Shown here: piece by piece, positions 6,670-58,646 of the stretch
Numbering within the stretch: the first letter of the stretch is position 1
Layout of the letters: each line of letters opens with the position of its first letter
Assembly (NCBI GenBank): GCA_027972325.1
Contig: JAPMOS010000002.1
Location: 1,152,001-1,216,000, forward strand
From: Paratrimastix pyriformis
Taxonomy: Eukaryota > Preaxostyla > Paratrimastigidae
Direction of reading: 5' to 3'
DNA: 64,000 nt
Made by a program: the position numbers and the translations under genes
Notes under the pieces: generated by a model
Database searches by the model: none
What the model saw: only the letters and a program-made list of their open reading frames with translations
Told to the model about the DNA's origin: nothing

Positions 6670-8743
6670 ACGTGGGGGTGAAAAACCCGGAAACGGGTTA
6701 AAAACCCGGACATGGAAGAACCGCCTCCCAGCCCAAGCAAGCTTCTTCTCACTGCTGAGTACCGTCAGCTTAAGCCAATTTCGCGTGCAGTTAAGCTCGT
6801 AAAGGACGGGAAGTGTTCCGTCCCAGATGCGGCATCTCTTGTCCGAAAAACCCCCCAGGCCGTTTACAGAGCTCTGGACGCCAGGGCGAACGGCCACGAG
6901 GAAGGGGTGAACGGAAGGCAACCTCTGGTGACTCCCGAAATGTGCGCACGCTTGCACGACAAGGTGGAAGCGGAAAATCAGGCAGGTTTGACCCTTTTGC
7001 GCCCCCTCGCGTCGCCCTGACCCCCACCACCACAGGAAAGTGCGTCACCAAGAAGAACTTCAAGGACATGGTCTGCCTCACGTTGCCAACCATAATCAAC
7101 GTCCCCCAGATCCTCGCCGAGGTGCTGACGGGCCCTTCCGGGGACGTATCCCGAGTCCCGGCCCTCGCCAAACGCACCGTCAAGGCCGTTGCGGCCAAGT
7201 GCGAGGTCGTCTTCCAGAAGCCCAGATACGTGGAAAAGGTCGGCTCGTCCTGTCTCCTGACGTCCCTTGTCCGATCTCCAGGCAGAGCCACCGCCTGCCC
7301 TTCTCCGTGGTCCAAGAATGGATGAACACGAACAGGGCCACCATCGAGAGCGCCGCCGCTCCGGAGCTACTGTTCAACGTCGACGAGACTTCACTTCAAC
7401 CGGGCAAGGCCGGCGATGAGAAGGTTGCTGTGACCATCGGAGGGACGAAACCGTCCGCGACTCGACCCCCAAAGGTCTGGACGTCACCGGTCCTCGACCC
7501 CATCCCTTCGGCTCCCCCCCGGTAGCTCCACCACTGCACCTTGATCCTCGGCTGCAGTGCCGCGGGAGAGAAGGTCCCCCCGGCTCTCATCCTCGCCAAT
7601 CTTCAGAAGGAGCCCGCACTCCCTAAAGCGGCCCAGGGCGCCTTCCTGGGCAGCTCCGAGTCGGGGTGGATCAACAGCGTCCTGTTCGCGGAATACCTCA
7701 CGAAGGTCTTCATCCCCCACGTCAAAGAGGTTCGGGCCACGCTTGGCATCGACGCCAACGCGACTGCCGTCCTCCTCATGGACAACTACGCGGCCCACAC
7801 CGAGGCGGTCGAGAGACTGACCCCCCTTCTGGAAAGCGAGCACGTGGTCATCCTCTTCCTTCTGCCCAACAGCACCGCGTTCTTGCAGCCCCTCGATCGG
7901 ACGGTGAATCGAGGTCGGCCACCCCCAACCGAATGCAGTGTATGCTCACGTTCTTCCAGACTTTAAGAGCTTGTTCTACCGCCGCTACGAAGTGATCGAA
8001 GAGGAGATGGAGAAAGCCCGCAAGAAGGAAGATGCCCGCGAGAAGGTAGATGCCCGGGTCATTGTCTGTGCCCTGCTCCTGCATGTGCAACCGTCCAACC
8101 ACTCGCCCATGGCCCGGCTCGCTTCCATCAGGTGCTGGAGGCCGCCTTCGATGCACTCGGAGGCACTGCCACGCCCGTTATGGTCCGGAGGGGGTGGTCC
8201 CAGTGCGGCCTCTGCCCCTTCGACGTCGACGCGGCCACGACCCACGAATGCGTCATTCCCGCTCCCCGGGTCACCCGTCCGACTCACCCGAGGCCCATCA
8301 TGAACACGCTTGTTCCCCCACAAAACAAGGTCAGGCGGATCGTGCTGGATGACGACACTTCCGAGGAGTCATGGGACGAGATGGAGAAACTGGCTGCCAT
8401 GCCGGCTCGTGTCCCTCCGGCCCCAGAGGCCACTCCCGCCACCCCAGAGGCCACTCCTGCCGGGCGTCGCGCGCCCCGCAAGCGGGCCGGACAAGCGCGG
8501 CCAGCGCCAGTCACTCCTGGTCCCCCCGCCGACGTTCCCGGGGTCAAGGAGGCCACCCCTGCTGAAAAATAATTCAAGTCGACCCTTCTCGTTTTTTTTT
8601 TGCTCTTCGCTCCCCCCTCAAACTGCAACTCGTTTGCGTCTGAGTGCACTGTAAATATGAGGGATATCGAAGAAAAAATTTGAAAATTTGAATTCTCCGC
8701 TTTCCGGCTTTGCCGCCCGTTTCCGGGTTTTTCACCCCCACGT
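6670..8743 (+). mobile_element. pogo/Jerky-type DNA transposon, apparently intact
   Basis: A 2,074-bp element with perfect 28-bp terminal inverted repeats (6670-6697 and 8716-8743) starting ACGTGGGGGTG. It is flanked by a TA dinucleotide on both sides (6668-6669, 8744-8745), the target duplication expected of the Tc1/mariner-pogo superfamily. Between the ends lies one spliced DDE transposase gene with all three acidic residues. Perfect ends plus an open transposase suggest recent activity. The element occupies the space between the CPBP gene stop (6610) and the NC2-alpha start (8760). Confidence 0.95.
6712..8572 (+). CDS. DDE transposase, pogo/Jerky (DDE_1) type
   Basis: Transposase of the element at 6670-8743, with six exons: 6712-6985, 7036-7238, 7286-7474, 7526-7913, 7960-8045 and 8132-8572. 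All junctions keep frame and give 526 residues. The N-terminus resembles a helix-turn-helix DNA-binding domain (VPDAASLVRKTPQAVYRAL). The catalytic DDE_1 domain shows the three acidic positions in LFNVDETSLQPG, LLMDNYAAH and TAFLQPLDRTV, with LILGCSAAGEKVPPALI between the first and second. The C-terminal tail is Pro/Ala-rich with basic RRAPRKRAG, possibly nuclear targeting. Intron starts are mostly GTC as in host genes, so the element depends on the host splicing signal. ATG 6712 lies 14 bp inside the left inverted repeat. Confidence 0.93.
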
Positions 8744-31599: not shown

Positions 31600-31614
31600 T
31601 CACTCGGGTTGGGT

Positions 31615-31648
<34 letters not shown>

Positions 31649-34600
31649 TCCTGGGCCACCTCGACCATATCGGCCACCAGGCTGCGCAGCCCCTCCGCCC
31701 GGCGGACCCAGGCCTCCTGCCGGCGCGCCTCGTGGCCGGCGTCTCCATCTCCCAATGGCCCTGGGGCCGGGGCGGCCCGGGTGAGGTGCGCGCAGGCCCG
31801 GGCTAGAGTCACCAGGGGTTGGGTGGAGGCCGTGGTCGAGACGACCAGGCCCACCCCCGGCCCGGCCGCCCGGCCCGGATCCCGCCCCCCCAAGACAGGC
31901 AGTGGCTGGTACGAAATCTGCACCGACATCCCACAGTGGAAGCCCCGAGTGCCGAGTGATGGGACGGCAGCAGGGCAGGGCGGGACATCCCACAGTGGAA
32001 GCCCCGAGTGATGGGACGGCAGCAGGGCAGGGCGGGACGGCAGCAGGGCAGGGCGGGACGGCAGCAGGGCAGGGCGGGACGGCAGCAGGGCAGGGCGGGA
32101 CGGCAGCAGACAGACGGAGCACTTGAAGCCGGTGCTGAGCCAGGAGACGAACTGGATGTCGCGGCGGCACTTGAGCGCCCCGCAGGCCGCCATGACGTCC
32201 TTGGGGACGACGTCTGCAAAGCCCAACCCGTTCGGTGGGATGGTGGCCATAGGGGCGGGGTGGTGACACAGAATGGGATGATGATGCTGGCCATGGGCGG
32301 GGGGTGACGATGGCATTGGCTGGGCGGCGGACCGCCGAAGAAGTCCGCCTGGAGGGCCAGGAAGCGGGCCCCGGGGCCGGTCGGGTCGATGGCCGCGCTG
32401 AAGCTGCGCCCCTCGAAGGCCGCCATCACCCGCTCGACCACCGTCCGCCCGGCCGCCGGGGCCCCGGCCGCCGCCGGGGAGGGCAGGTAGGGCTGGTAGA
32501 CAGGCAGCGAGGTGACCAGGGTGCAAAGGCTCGGGTAGGGCACCAGACTCTGGTAGCGCCACTGGACGGGCTCCTCGCCGAGGCTGTTGGCCCCGTAGAG
32601 GAGCACTGCCCCACCCAGCCATATCCACCCACCCACCCACCCACCCACCCACCCACCCACCCACAGACACCCACAGACACCCACAGACACCCACAGACAC
32701 CCACAGACACCCACCCACCCACCCACAGACACCCACAGACACCCACAGACACCCACAGACACCCACAGACACCCACAGACACCCACAGACACCCACAGAC
32801 ACCCACAGACACCCACAGACACCCACAGACACCCACCCACCCACCCACAGACACCCACAGACACCCACAGACACCCACAGACACCCACAGACACCCACAG
32901 ACACCCACAGACACCCACAGACACACACAGACACCCACAGACACCCACCCACCCACCCACAGACACCCACAGACACCCACAGACACCCACAGACACACAC
33001 AGACACACACAGACACCCACAGACACACACAGACACCCACAGACACCCACAGACACCCAGGCCCGCAGCCGCCTGAGATCCCATTGCTGGCTGCCGGAGG
33101 GGCGTCCCTCATCAGGCCGCAGGTGGCGGACTCGCGAGACGAGGGCGGCGGTGGCGGGGCGGGTGGCGGACTTATGTGGGCTGCCGCGAGGCCGTTGACG
33201 TGGGCCATCGAGGGGAGCCCGGGCCCGGCCAGGTGGCGGGCGGCGGCGGGGTAGAGGGCCCGGTTGTCGAGCATGTGCACCAGCGGCTCCACCTCGCCCG
33301 CCTGGGCGGCCAGCTGGCCCGCCAGGCTCAGCGCGTTCAGGGCGGCAGTGCCCCAGGGGGCCGCCCGGCCGCCCGAGGGCCCGTCGAGGTCCAGGAGCGG
33401 GTGCAGGGCGGGCAGGATGGGGTGCACCAGGTGGCGGGCGGCCGGCCGGGGGTACGCCTCGCCCAGGGCCTCCAGCAGGGCGCAGGTCAGGCTGCTCCCG
33501 ATGGTGCCCCCCGCCCCCGCCAGCAGGCTCACCCCGCCCAGCGGGCCCGGCATCCCCTCCGCCAGCCGGCGGATCTTGGGTCGCGGCGAGGCGAGCCGAG
33601 CCGAGCCGAGGAGGCGAGGCGAAGAGGGAGCGAGCCAACGGGCAGGGACGATCGGTGCCGGCCGGGGCGAACGGTTATGGGAGAGGAATGGGTGAGGAAT
33701 GGGTGAGGAATGGGTGAGGAAGGTTGGGCACTGGGGGCTGGGCTGGGGGGCTGACAGGGCACGCGGCCGCCGAGCGGACCTGCTCCTCGGCCTCCCGGAC
33801 GGCCCCGACCAGGACGGGTGAGCTCTCCCCCTCCAGGGCGGGGCATGGGGGCGTCCCCCAGGGAGCCGCAGCCTCGGGGGGCGGGTCGCCCTCGGCGGAC
33901 GGGTGGCCCTGCCCGGCGGCGGCGAGCAGGGCCTCCAGCAGCCCCCCGGCACCCGGCCCGTCGGGGCGCGGGGAGTGGGGGCCGGGCCAGGGCCAGGGCC
34001 GGGCCGGCAGAGAGCCCCGGAAGGCGGCCCGGGAGAGGAGGACGGCCGGGGGGCAGGCCGCATCGAGGGCCGGGCACCGGTCGGCCAGCGGGTCGGACCA
34101 CAGGGCCTCGCAGCTCGCCCAGTCCTCTGCGCCGCCCCGAGGAGCAGGAAGCGACGACCGAGGTGCGGTGGTGAATGCCCGTGACGATGCTGGGCGGTGG
34201 TGGGGCGTCCCCGAAGCCGGGGAGCGAGGAGCCAGAGGCGGTGCGGACCCTGGGCGCCGACCCAGAGGGCCTGCGGGCGCCACAGCCCCCTCGGGGTGGG
34301 CCTGAACAGGGAGGCCATCGAGGGCTCCTCCAGCAGGCGGGTGTCGGCCCAGCGGCGGCCCAGCAGGTCCCACAGGGGGCCTGCGCACCGCATGCCCGCC
34401 CCGCCCAGGTGTAGGAAGACCCGGGTCCCCTCGTGCGACCGGGCCGGCGCCGCCTCATCGGCCGATACGCTGCTGCTGCTGCTGTCGGCGGGGGCTGCAG
34501 GGGCGGTGGTGGCGGCTTCTGGGGCCGGGGGGACGAGGGCGACCACCGAGGGCGGAGGGGGCGCGGGGGGCCGAAACAGGGCCTGCCGCATGGCCTCGAC

Positions 34601-36390
34601 GGCCTCCCGCCGGAAGGCCGAGCAGACGCAGCTGCGGCCGCCACGCCCCGCCGCCAGCCCCACCCCATCGCACCGCCAGCCCCTCACGGGGATCAGCACA
34701 GCCGCAGGGCAGCCTCCGGACGCAGGGGCAACCGTCGTCATCACCACCGGCAGCCGCACCGCACCAGCAGCAACCACACCAATGGGACCGGCGGCGCAGG
34801 GGCGGACCTGATGGCGTGCATGGCCTCGAGCGGGAGGTGCCCCCAGACGATGCGCCGGATCTCGGGGGGCATGGTGGCCAGGCTGTGGGGCTGACCCCAG
34901 GCCGGCTCCGAGGGCCGCCGGGCCGCCGGGTCCGTGGCGGCCGCCAGGTGGCCCGGGGGGAGCTCCAGGGCCCCGCATGACTCCTGCCCGCGACAGCCCC
35001 GCCCGCCCAGGGCCGGGGATGAGCGACGACAGGGTAATGGGAATGCGGCAAGGGCCCAGGATGAGGGGATTGGATTGCGGGGGCGCCCGTGGGAGCATGC
35101 CATTTGCGGGGTGGCGGAGCCGCGGCGGACCGGTGCGGGGGGCGGCGCGCCCAGGCGCGACTGTGACTGGGCCCCGCCTGCCCCGAGGAGCAGCGCCACT
35201 GGGGCGGGGAGCCGCGGCACGGCCAAGCTGCCCGCTGCCGGTCGTGCGGCGGTCGGGTCCTCTGCAGGGGCGCCTCGAGGCCCTGCCGGTGCTGCCGCGG
35301 GGCTCATCATCAGGGCCCGGGGGGCCGGCCGCATGCTCGGGGCCCCAGCAGCGGCGTGCCTGAGGTACTCGGTCACGGTGGGGTAGAAGGGGACCTGCCC
35401 CCAGCCCGTCGCACCGCCACCGCCCAAAAAGACGGTTCGCGCCCTGGGCAGAAGACGACCAGCCGGGGCAGCGGCAAAGGGGGTGGGACATCGACCTGGC
35501 TGGGGCAGAGCCTGGGCACCATCCACACCACGAAGCTGACCCGCTCCTGGCCGGGGCCGGTGGTCTCGACGTGGTGCATCAGGTCGCCCACGTGGAGCGT
35601 GGCCCAGCCGGTGGGGGGGTTCAGGTACCACTGGTTGAGCACCCGCTGGCCGGCCAGGGGGTGCTCGCTCCGCAGGGTGCAGCAGGGCGGCTGCTCGGGG
35701 GGCGCGCCGACCGGCCCCTGGGCGGGGTCGCCCAACACGAAGTGCATCATGCCCGGGGCGGCCTCGGCGGGCAGGGGCAGCCGGGCCGGGGCCAGCTGGG
35801 CGGGCTGAAGCACCACAGTCAGGGTCAGAAAGCTGTCATCCGTGTGCAGGTCTTCGACGGGCATTTTGGGCGGGTCGCCCCGGGGCTGGGGGGACAGCCC
35901 CACCAGATAATCGTCGGGGCGCAGGGCCATCTCGTGTCGAGGGAACAGTTGGGGAAAAAGTTGACGAGAAAGAGGAGATATATACTCCCGAATGAGGGTC
36001 GGGAAGAGGGAGCCAGGCGCCGGTGTCATCTCGCCTCCGCCGAAAAGATGATGGAGCATGCTGCCATGATGATACTTTCCTGTGTGGTCAGTAGTTGTCC
36101 AAGCGCGGAACGCGACGATCTCTTCGAGCAGTTGTTTACAGAAGGGCTCCGCAAAGAGCGGGAAAGCGGCGAAAAGTCCCCGATGAGTACAATCATCGTG
36201 AAGGCATCCCGAACATGGGCACGGCGTATGAACCCGGAAGTTCGGATGGATCCAGCCGTGAGAAAACGGTCCTCTGAGCTCTGGGTGGCGGAGGGTATAT
36301 CCCGCTTCTGTGGGTTGGTCCAGCCTGCTGCGTCTCTCTTGCCAGGGTGTCCTCCCCCCCCCCCCCCCCCCCCCCCCCCCCCGCGCGCAC
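31600..36390 (-). CDS. 2OG-Fe(II) oxygenase / F-box / divergent alpha-tubulin-like fusion
   Basis: Three domains in order. (1) 2-oxoglutarate/Fe(II) dioxygenase: FPLFAEPFCKQLLEEIVAF, metal motif DLHTDDSFLTLTVVLQ (HxD), distal GDLMHHVETTGPGQERVSF. (2) F-box: LATMPPEIRRIVWGHLPLEA joined by an intron to SCVCSAFRREAVEAM. (3) Divergent alpha-tubulin: RVFLHLGGAGMRCAGPLWDL (tubulin start), QIRRLAEGMPGPLGGVSLLA, the T4-loop equivalent GAGGTIGSS for GGGTGSG, MLDNRALYPAAARHL, SLVPYP, ADVVPKDV, FVSWLSTGFKCSISYQP. The F-box second half and the tubulin start share one exon. The oxygenase-to-F-box join needs one 64-nt intron (GTCGTC...GGGCAG), otherwise the oxygenase frame stops at 35373. The tubulin lacks the catalytic Glu. 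The tail is Asp-Pro repeats. The 5' end is approximate. Confidence 0.75.
32018..32105. repeat. 21-bp CGGCAGCAGGGCAGGGCGGGA array
   Basis: About four copies in an intron between tubulin-like exons, preceded by a duplicated ~50-bp block (31,930-32,010). Confidence 0.9.
32618..33060. repeat. (CCCACAGACA)n / (CCCA)n compound array
   Basis: About 440 bp of a 10-bp unit interspersed with ACCC tetramers in an intron of the tubulin-like part. It is responsible for very long GVCGCLWVS and PTDTHRHPQ pseudo-frames. Confidence 0.97.
36353..36382. repeat. Poly-C tract (30 nt)
   Basis: Near the 5' limit of the oxygenase fusion gene, poly-G on its coding strand. Confidence 0.85.
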
Positions 36391-36431: not shown

Positions 36432-39400
36432 CTAGCAGATGCAGCAGCAGCAGCAGCAGCCCCTCTTGGGCGGCTGGGGGGCCGGGTCGGTCTGGGTGGC
36501 CGCCTCAGCACAGGGCCAGGGCAGCCGCGGGACGGGGGTCGCGGCCGCAGCGACGGGGGCCGTCTGGGGTGGGGGACCGGCCGCTTTGAGGGCCCGCAGC
36601 TCGGCCCCCTGCGCCCGCAACTCGACTCCTTGCGCCCGCAGCTCGCCCGCCTGCGGGTGGCGCGGGTGGGGGATATGGAAGGTGGTGGAAGGTGGAAGGT
36701 GGAAGGTGGAAGGTGGAAGGTTGGAAGGGTGGAAGGTTGGAAGGTGGAAGGCGGAAGGCGGGTGAAGGCGATGGCGCGAGCCGCTCATGACGACGGCGGC
36801 AGTGGGACGGACTATGGCGGTCAAAAGGTCGGCGCTCTGGCGTGCGGCGGCCTCGCTCTTGGCCATGTGCCCGGCCAGCAGCTCCCGCACATCCTGGGCC
36901 GAGCCGCCAGTGGTCAGGTGGTGGTGGTGGTGGTGGTGGTGGTCAGATTCTCAGCCAACAGGCGAGGGGCGAGTGGGAGGAGTCAGTGCGGGTCCTGGCG
37001 GACCTGGGCGCTCAGCTGCTCAGCCAGCCGCTCGGCGACAGCCCTGGCCAGCCCGCCCGGCGAGAGGGGCGGCGGGGGCGTCGGCACGCGGTCCTGGGGG
37101 TGGGCGCATCGAATGTGTGGGCGGCTGTTGGCGGGGGGCGGGGCGCAGACCGCGAGCGGCGGCTCGGCCTTCGGAGGCGAGGGGAGGGGCGCTGGGGCGG
37201 CCCCGGTGGATGGCAGCTCAAGCTCCACAAGGGGCACGTCCTCCTCATCATCTGGCTCCCCGTCCTGGTGCTGCCCCGGCGGCCGGTGTTGCTGCTGCCG
37301 GTCGATGGACGGGGCTGCGCTTTGGCTCTGGGCATGGGCGGGGAGCATGGGACGCGGGGCGGGGTCGCCGCGTGCGGCCATGCGGACCCGGTCGCTGAGG
37401 GCCAGGGAGGAGGCCTCGCTCCGCTGGCTGGCGGCCTCCTCGGCCTGGCCGGGCACCCGCGGCGACCCCAACCGGTCCAAGGGCAGCGCCGGCAGCGAGG
37501 GCCTCTGGCCCGGGGAGAGCGGCGGCGAGGTCGCCGCTGGGGCGGGCCGGGCCGAGACGGGCGGGGGCGGGGAGCCCAGGTAGCTGCTGGGGGCCGCGCT
37601 CAGGTCGAGGTCGGCCGGGGCGGCCCCCTGACCCTCGCGGCCCGTGCCCTCGTCGCGGTCGGGGCCCGGCGGCTGGGCGATGTCACCGCTCGGTGTGGGT
37701 CGGCCCCCGGGGGCGCTTGGGGGCTCGGGGGCGGCGGTACCGGGGGCGGGGGCGAGGGGGTCGCGGGGGCGCCCGGCGGGATGGTCGCTCACCACCGAGG
37801 CCGCGTCCTCGTCGTCCGACATGGGCGCCAACGGATCCGCCGGCTGTGGCTGTGGCTGCGGCTGCGGCTGCGGCTCGGGCAGGCAGGGAGCCTCGGGCTC
37901 GGGGGGCGGGGAGGGCGGGCTGGCCGCCAGGGCACGCCGGGTGTCCATCAGGGCCTGCAGCGGCCCCGAGCGGAGGGCGGGGGCAGGCGGGGTGGCGGTG
38001 CTGTTGCCGGGGGGGAGCGGAGTGGCGCCCAGCGCGCCCGACGATGCCGAGAGCAGGCCGGCCGGGGGCAGCGGCTCTGGGGTGGCGAGGGGCGAGGCAA
38101 CGGGCCAGCCGCCCGGCGGGGGGTGCGGCGTGCCCAGCAGCTGCTGGGTCAGGGCCGCCCAGGTGGTGCCCGCTGGCGGCCCGGGTAGCCAGGGGGCCAC
38201 GGGGCGGCCGGGGCGGGGCGGGGCGGGGGAGGGCACCTCCGGCGGCCGACTGGATGATGGCCGCGGCCAGGCTCGAGGGGGGGGCCGCACCCGCCCGGGG
38301 CGCCCGCCCGTACCCGGAGCGCCGGGGCGCCAGGACCGCGGCCCCGCTGCCAGCCGGGGAGGGCTGCTGGGGGAGGTAGGGGGCCGCCTCGCTGCGGGGC
38401 GTCGGCTCGGCGAGGGCGCCGCCGTTATCCGGGCCGCCCGAGGAGCTGGCGGCGTACTTAAAGAGGAGCGCGGCCCCCTTGAGGGACGGCCGGGCGAGGC
38501 CGGGCGGGGGCAAGGCGAAGCCCCCGTGAGGCGTGATGAAGAGGGCGGCCGGGGCCGGGGCCGGGGCCGGGGCAGTGATGGGGGCCGGGTGTGCCGCCGA
38601 CTGGGGGACGGCGGGCCCTGGGGGGCCGAGGTCCATCGAAACCGTCACGGCGGGCGGCTCCCCCGCCGGCCCTCGAGGGGCCCGCGGCTGGTGGGAATAC
38701 CCCAGGGGCCGCTCCGCCTGGGGGCTGGGCAGCCGCTTGGCAGGGGTGGCGGTGACGGTGGTGGCGGTGATGGCGGAGGCGTGGGGATGCACCTGCAGCT
38801 GCGGGTGGGCGGGTCCGCCCAAGGGGCGGGGGCTGGGCTGGGCGCTCCGTGTGCGACCGGTGCGGCTGCTGCTCTCGGAGCGAGCCGACTTGCCCGAGCG
38901 CGCGCTGGGCGGGGGCTCTTCGTCCTCCTGGGCCAAACCGCCCAGGCCCAAAGCAGGCGCGCCCCGGGACGGTTGGGGCGGCGCCGGCATGGCCGCTGGG
39001 ACCGGCGGGATGACGGGGGCTGGGACCGGCGGGGGTGGCGGTTCCTTGGCGGGGAGCGTGGAATCTGGGGGGAGAGATGGAGGGAGAGCGGGAAAAGGGG
39101 AGGCCGCAGCGACGGCGTGCGGGAGTTGGGGTTGGGGAATGGGAGCCGGGTTTGCTGCAGCTGGTGGTGGTGGTGGTGGTGGTGGTGGTGATGATGGTGG
39201 TGGTGGTGGGAGGGCTGTGGTCTGCCGGGGCGATCTGCTCGAGGCGGCGGACGCGAGCAGCCGAGTCAGAGAGGGGGAGGCAATCAGCGAGCTGGAGCTG
39301 GCGGGGAGCTGAGCGGGTGCGCCAGAGGGGGGGGATGGGGAAGGGGCGGGCGAGGGTGAGCGAGACTGGCCCGGGAGGGCGGGGGCAGGCGTCCCCACCG

Positions 39401-55904: not shown

Positions 55905-58646
<2,742 letters not shown>

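Follow-up and report, generated by a model that had tools for sequence, protein, structure and literature searches.

A single-copy gene of Paratrimastix pyriformis that joins an F-box-like segment to a degenerate alpha-tubulin and likely also to an OGFOD2-like oxygenase

In F-box proteins, the F-box generally precedes the domain that recognizes the substrate. For ubiquitin ligases directed at tubulin, a 2026 review lists MGRN1 and Parkin (alpha-tubulin), Parkin (beta-tubulin), and BRCA1/BARD1 together with CUL1, CUL4A, and CUL4B (gamma-tubulin), and the parts of the review covered name no F-box protein for alpha/beta-tubulin (PMC12868001). No fusion of an F-box with a tubulin was found in the open-licence literature at the level of titles and abstract openings. 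Here, such a combination is described from a stretch of 64,000 nucleotides (the window) of the preaxostylid Paratrimastix pyriformis (assembly GCA_027972325.1, 56 Mb in 495 contigs; contig JAPMOS010000002.1, positions 1,152,001 to 1,216,000). On the minus strand of the window, an F-box-like segment stands, likewise, ahead of its putative recognition domain, a degenerate alpha-tubulin, and an OGFOD2-like oxygenase likely belongs to the same protein. An earlier note on this DNA had proposed that an alpha-tubulin with a lost GTP site shares a protein with an F-box, and this much is well supported by the sequence. The fusion gene is present as a single copy in one genome. It is tentatively read as one gene for an F-box-like protein that would use the degenerate alpha-tubulin as substrate-recognition domain, an SCF adaptor gripping beta-tubulin, a reading to which we give a little less than an even chance.

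The tubulin part extends from 34,423 to 31,600 with the tubulin landmarks in the order previously noticed by eye. In a phmmer search of PDB its top match was alpha-tubulin (4e-23), and Pfam returned Tubulin_C above the cut-off (8.2e-8) and Tubulin below it (0.0015), so that the profile check called for in the earlier note came out in favor of a tubulin. The domain is identical to the alpha-tubulin of its own genome at 129 of 416 positions, versus 94 of 413 for the beta-tubulin. In a tree of eight sequences, the alphas and the fusion tubulin were split from beta, gamma, and delta with a FastTree local support of 0.998 and an IQ-TREE ultrafast bootstrap of 100; the fusion tubulin formed a long branch, and its position outside versus within the alphas was weaker (0.88; 70-78). 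The delta-like sequence of this tree, presumably the delta-tubulin of the same genome, was roughly spliced only. As judged from alignment and tree, the tubulin part belongs to the alpha side and is homologous along the whole domain. Searching the genome with it gave nine matches at E ≤ 1, namely, six to the gene itself, two to the alpha-tubulin copies on contig C35, and one on contig C453, and none of 12 pattern-matching stretches in viral contigs was confirmed as a relative.

By alignment, the domain has lost the catalytic Glu and most residues of its GTP site. In human alpha numbering, the changes at the nucleotide site are Q11>G, D69>G, E71>Q, N101>A, E183>A, and Y224>M, with N206 and N228 retained, and the T4 loop is altered from GGGTGSG to GGTIGSS, in agreement with the first reading. 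Position 254, reported there as Trp, does not hold the catalytic Glu; it is Trp by an ungapped count from LVPYP and Gln in the MAFFT alignment, which places a one-residue insertion. The domain also carries insertions relative to alpha-tubulin and a deletion of nine positions in H11-H12, and retains an acidic C-terminal tail.

One surface is kept far better than the remainder. In alpha 321-360 (H10-S9), 26 of 40 residues are identical to the canonical alpha of the genome, compared to 103 of 370 elsewhere (97 of 374 in a second alignment, with 26/40 again in the segment), and identity in the remaining segments, which include core strands, is only 19-34%. A count of 26 was not attained in any of 20,000 shuffles, and among windows of 40 residues this segment ranks first. 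Other tubulins compared with the same alpha showed no such peak (own beta 12/40, human beta 11/40, gamma 9/40, delta-like 6/35), and in these alignments the conservation is alpha-specific and not common to every tubulin. In crystal structures, S9, H10, and T7 of alpha complete the site at the interface between dimers, where alpha meets beta (PMC4982639, in the parts covered). The fusion tubulin may, from its sequence, still be able to contact beta-tubulin at its plus-end face.

Several points weigh against this interpretation of the surface. The shuffle P takes no account of the segment having been chosen, the contact residues N329 and I332 within H10-S9 are changed, and T7 is altered. True alphas are enriched in the same segment (human alpha 38/40 versus 345/400, the second alpha of this genome 32/40 versus 279/400), and part of the excess is therefore general. 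In normal tubulin H10-S9 is partly buried, and the demands of folding could also explain why it is retained. Both observations would suit a pseudo-tubulin that serves as a structural or regulatory lobe, binding, for example, tubulin chaperones or the oxygenase and not a client. Since core strands are among the segments at 19-34% identity, such a lobe is considered unlikely.

The segment ahead of the tubulin is probably a degenerate F-box. Scanned alone, it matched the Pfam families F-box-like (0.039, 14.2 bits versus a cut-off of 24.3) and F-box (0.047, 14.1 versus 20.5). With a profile built from 40 of the 149 F-box matches of this genome, the spliced protein came first (E = 0.003; 0.011 for its best domain; 0.17 for the runner-up) among 790 sequences, the others being 789 unspliced open reading frames of the window of at least 40 amino acids. 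Its pattern MPPEI..I..HLPLE.....SCVCSAFR aligns to this profile. The description of the F-box as canonical in the earlier note does not hold by Pfam, where the segment stays under both cut-offs. Further evidence against an F-box is that neither Pfam F-box model was listed when longer pieces were scanned and that phmmer against PDB gave no match at E ≤ 10 for the segment alone. These results, and the other weak families found alongside (DUF7730 at 0.14 and 2EXR at 0.26), would be expected if the match had arisen by chance and the protein were merely a tubulin, divergent or pseudo, headed by an unrelated helix. The first rank in the lineage profile, the aligned pattern, and the location ahead of a folded domain make a chance match quite improbable.

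Segment and tubulin lie in one open frame of seven exons, from 34,983 to the stop at 31,600, with GTCYG donors and AG acceptors at all joins. One intron interrupts the F-box-like segment, whose second half runs unbroken within exon 34,631-34,249 into RVFLHLGGAGMRCAGPLWDL at the tubulin N-terminus, as had been pointed out before; because this half and the first tubulin strand share an exon, the fusion is not an annotation artefact. The features of the locus, including those discussed further below, are as follows.

35,496-36,278, minus strand: exon of the OGFOD2-like 2-oxoglutarate/Fe(II) oxygenase; the conserved match runs from about 36,179, and 36,278 is a chosen working boundary
35,395-35,495, minus strand: best joining intron if oxygenase and F-box form one gene, 101 nt, CAG/GTCGATG ... 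GGGCAG (the slash marks the splice site), donor at the 8th percentile
35,131-35,394, minus strand: linker exon rich in Pro and Ala; a separate F-box gene would have its first in-frame ATG at 35,334
34,984-35,130, minus strand: intron of 147 nt with a GTCCGC donor of the consensus type; non-coding by codon-position GC
34,808-34,983, minus strand: exon with the first half of the F-box-like segment (MPPEIRRIVWGHLPLEAMHAI; MPPEI codon at 34,872)
34,632-34,807, minus strand: intron splitting the F-box-like segment
34,249-34,631, minus strand: exon with the second F-box half and, from 34,423, the N-terminal tubulin strand and helix
33,780-34,126, minus strand: tubulin exon, diverged T2-T3 region
33,172-33,574, minus strand: tubulin exon, T4 and T5 altered, N206 and N228 kept
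32,606-33,171, minus strand: intron of 566 nt, mostly a 10-bp minisatellite (32,658-33,059)
32,333-32,605, minus strand: tubulin exon, T7/H8, LVPYP at 32,546, position 254 without Glu
32,116-32,213, minus strand: tubulin exon, bulk of the H10-S9 beta-facing surface (DVVPKDV)
31,600-31,917, minus strand: final exon with the end of S9, S10, the H11-H12 remnant, the acidic DPDPDP tail, and the stop

Seven donors, all of the GTCYG form, lie between 35,130 and 32,115 and fall at the 28th-78th percentile of 98 GT training donors. The training set comprised 177 distinct introns from tubulin, actin, and kinesin protein alignments at 46 genome loci, several of them overlapping or near copies; a flank filter of at least five similar residues out of ten on each side passed 106 introns, 98 with GT and eight with GC donors, the latter probably alignment errors. 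Over the 629 codons of the F-box/tubulin exons, the guanine-plus-cytosine (GC) content at the three codon positions was 0.78/0.60/0.94. In the same frame, 34,984-34,870 was coding-like as in the downstream exons and 35,130-34,986 was not; thus, the first F-box exon begins upstream of MPPEI, behind an intron. The exon between oxygenase and F-box, earlier described as long and open, therefore holds a further consensus intron (35,130-34,984). MPPEI at 34,872 as the sole start of the F-box gene was rejected, the codon-position GC being coding upstream to 34,983. Farther upstream, at 35,372-35,131, values of 0.85/0.75/0.80 did not make coding clear in that frame. A decaying tubulin pseudogene, accidentally fused to flanking sequence, would be consistent with the long divergent branch, the lost GTP site, and minisatellites in two introns; it is very improbable in view of exons that are all open in frame, consensus donors, a strong third-position bias, and the one surface retained far above the remainder.

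The oxygenase lies in an open stretch from 36,431 to 35,376, which ends at a stop (35,375-35,373) if unspliced. The dioxygenase HxD and distal His/Arg seen in the earlier note were read again by eye (His codon at 35,846, distal His at 35,573, Arg at 35,543). In place of the 2OG-FeII_Oxy match anticipated there, Pfam returned OGFOD2-like as the sole family at E ≤ 10 (1.7e-5, 25.2 bits versus a cut-off of 31), with the matched part preceding HxD; the score was 24.8 bits in a second scan and 27.1 in the genome search. Among the genome matches listed at E ≤ 1, this oxygenase was the only one of the OGFOD2-like family, a search of the genome with the oxygenase itself returned only the self-match, and phmmer against PDB gave none at E ≤ 10. 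A single-sequence AlphaFold model of the exon had a mean predicted local distance difference test score of 32.4 and lends no support to the triad. Two points count against the oxygenase as part of the overall reading, the failure of any Pfam 2OG-FeII oxygenase family to appear and the lack of an in-frame ATG ahead of the conserved match, the first being at 36,059; an unseen upstream exon, another type of start, or an assembly error may each explain the latter.

Splice signals speak against placing the oxygenase in the same gene. No GTCYG donor occurs between the oxygenase domain and the in-frame stop at 35,373, and the top donor there reaches 5.47 bits, the 8th percentile. The intron 35,495-35,395 is the best join that keeps the whole domain (10.71 bits for donor plus acceptor); the overall best (10.87 bits, 13th percentile) cuts the domain, and a better-scoring GTCGG donor at 35,711 (27th percentile) sits inside it. 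The joining intron of 64 nt proposed earlier was not recovered as such: the nearest is 35,459-35,395 (65 nt, donor at the 6th percentile), which scores below 35,495-35,395. Two tandem genes, the oxygenase ending at 35,373 and a separate F-box/pseudo-tubulin adaptor beginning at ATG 35,334 or in the next exon, would account for the contrast in donor rank among the 98 real GT donors (3rd-8th percentile for the joining donors, 28th-78th downstream), and the C-terminal tail of the oxygenase is about as long as that of OGFOD2. The gap from stop to ATG would, however, be only 38 nt.

Base composition before the starts of other genes argues for a single gene. The 200 nt before the start had a GC of 0.42-0.60 in 12 of 14 tubulin and actin loci with a start found, a set that includes some near copies and one locus with only 51 nt upstream. 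Among the kinesins, 13 of 24 loci aligned from near the motor N-terminus and nine had an ATG, representing six distinct genes, with 0.46-0.56 in five of them and 0.735 in one that is in our judgement an internal motor (L026); of the four kinesin loci without a start, one (L040) had 0.74 GC in a single upstream bin. All 20 F-box genes, chosen from 40 for a nearby ATG, showed 0.45-0.67 before the start and 0.40-0.60 in the first 300 coding bases; their GC at third codon positions (GC3) is lower than in the fusion gene, a possible bias, though four of the five kinesins had a motor GC3 of 0.81-0.85. At the locus, the 5' region of the oxygenase has a GC of 0.55 (36,259-36,060; 100-nt bins of 0.53-0.58 over 36,300-35,901), compared to 0.705 and 0.77 in the 200 nt before the candidate F-box starts at 35,334 and 34,872, and between 33,200 and about 35,840 the lowest value for 200 nt is 0.70. 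Both candidate starts are thus outside the 0.42-0.67 of the tested starts, the kinesin at 0.735 excepted, and two tandem genes are regarded as rather unlikely. Since the GC dip is found at the oxygenase and none before the F-box, a triple fusion of oxygenase, F-box, and tubulin in one protein is held to be likely, if unproven. The earlier joining of the oxygenase to the F-box/tubulin part is accordingly backed by the GC signature and not by the splice donor.

As for function, the earlier proposal of a ubiquitin-ligase adaptor with a GTPase-dead tubulin was sharpened by the selective retention of the H10-S9 surface, and the adaptor role is a reasonable extension of the sequence data. The F-box would bind Skp1 within an SCF ubiquitin ligase, and the pseudo-alpha-tubulin would use the H10-S9 face at its minus end to dock onto beta-tubulin, at the plus-end face left exposed, like the alpha of the next dimer. 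It should be unable to bind GTP, to trigger GTP hydrolysis, or to take a beta partner of its own, and tubulin dimers, or a protein recognizing the same face, would be presented for ubiquitination. The oxygenase, if joined, might hydroxylate the bound client or tie the step to oxygen and 2-oxoglutarate. The full scheme, an oxygen-dependent E3 adaptor of oxygenase, F-box, and pseudo-alpha-tubulin that by mimicry caps the plus-end face of beta-tubulin without triggering GTP hydrolysis and hands the dimer, or else a hydroxylated client, over to SCF, is unlikely in this entirety.

The splice donors of this genome are themselves unusual. The consensus among the 106 verified introns is G/GTC[TCG]G[CT], with C at +3 in 88 and G at +5 in 94, and none has a GTAAG or GTGAG donor; variants such as GTTTG occur, with TTG at +3 to +5 in eight. 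At least eight U1 small nuclear RNA matches were found (L018-L025; 50.8-60.2 bits, E from 2e-10 to 4e-13, below the Rfam gathering score of 69.5) with 41 of 992 first-look candidates scored and sub-threshold matches also in three of 14 prokaryote controls. The 5' end of all eight copies reads ATACAGACCTTGC, versus AUACUUACCUGG in the Rfam consensus, and pairs with the donor AAG/GUCUGUAU. U6 was found in four copies, and ACAGAGA is kept in the single copy read (L062). These pairings point to a likely compensatory switch of U1 and the 5' splice site, possibly of wider interest than the fusion itself. No comparable switch was found among the papers listed, by title or abstract opening. Diplonemids have an alternative U1 with a C run (PMC12621601, in the parts covered), which differs from the U1 change seen here. 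The minisatellite at 32,658-33,059 (about 40 copies of 10 bp) repeats on the minus strand the unit GTCTGT, the local donor motif, and is a run of decoy 5' splice sites. An Rfam scan of the window gave no match reaching the gathering score.

Apart from the fusion gene, the genome encodes canonical alpha- and beta-tubulins, with 135 exon-level kinesin motor matches and the 149 F-box matches at E ≤ 1. On one contig each, the genes of alpha-tubulin (L001/L002) and beta-tubulin (L003/L004) form an inverted pair whose members score equally in Pfam and are separated by about 75 kb and 21 kb, respectively. The gene on C453 (L005) is a second alpha-tubulin of greater divergence, which shares 311 of 440 positions with the canonical one. 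Six of the 20 start-placed F-box proteins (L107, L111, L112, L114, L117, and L118) begin with MGQ, which we take to be an N-myristoylation-like motif. The 5' GC dip (about 0.5) at nearly all tested gene starts, with interiors of GC3 up to about 0.95, could serve as an aid for finding gene boundaries. Elsewhere in the window, open frames upstream of the oxygenase (36,433-38,644, minus strand) show by eye a long Pro/Ser-rich region, a coiled-coil-like stretch, and the ending CCCCCCIC, reminiscent of a lipidated C-terminus. A DDE_1 endonuclease match at 7,526-7,963 (plus strand; Pfam 1.5e-11) is a transposon remnant or a gene, and a (CA)n run of 1.1 kb with about 560 copies occupies 57,311-58,430.

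If the adaptor reading is true, a ligase would recognize the cytoskeleton through a dead copy of its target's own partner, which would provide a direct way to control free tubulin. The protein would also be an alpha-tubulin mimic of natural origin that lacks the catalytic Glu and in which the beta-binding face has been evolutionarily parted from the GTP site.

OGFOD2 itself is described as a protein of unknown function (PMC10083964, in the parts covered). The oxygenase of the locus resembles OGFOD2-like 2-oxoglutarate/Fe(II) oxygenases in its domain match and HxD...H...R, and differs from them in a score below the curated cut-off and in its probable fusion to F-box and tubulin. Neither JmjC (at E ≤ 10) nor LRR families were listed for the fusion protein in the Pfam scans. 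KDM2 (JmjC-F-box-LRR) combines a 2-oxoglutarate oxygenase with an F-box in one polypeptide, as the gene described here probably does; the oxygenase here is of another family, and KDM2 is not known to contain a tubulin. As in alpha-tubulin, homology covers the whole domain, which falls on the alpha side of the tree and keeps the H10-S9 surface and the acidic tail, but the GTP loops and the catalytic Glu are lost, H11 is partly deleted, insertions are present, and an F-box-like segment stands in front. As in the F-box proteins that act as SCF substrate receptors, an F-box-like segment precedes a protein-binding domain; in contrast to the WD40, LRR, or Kelch domains familiar from these receptors, the putative recognition domain here is a degenerate alpha-tubulin, and the F-box itself lies below the Pfam cut-off.

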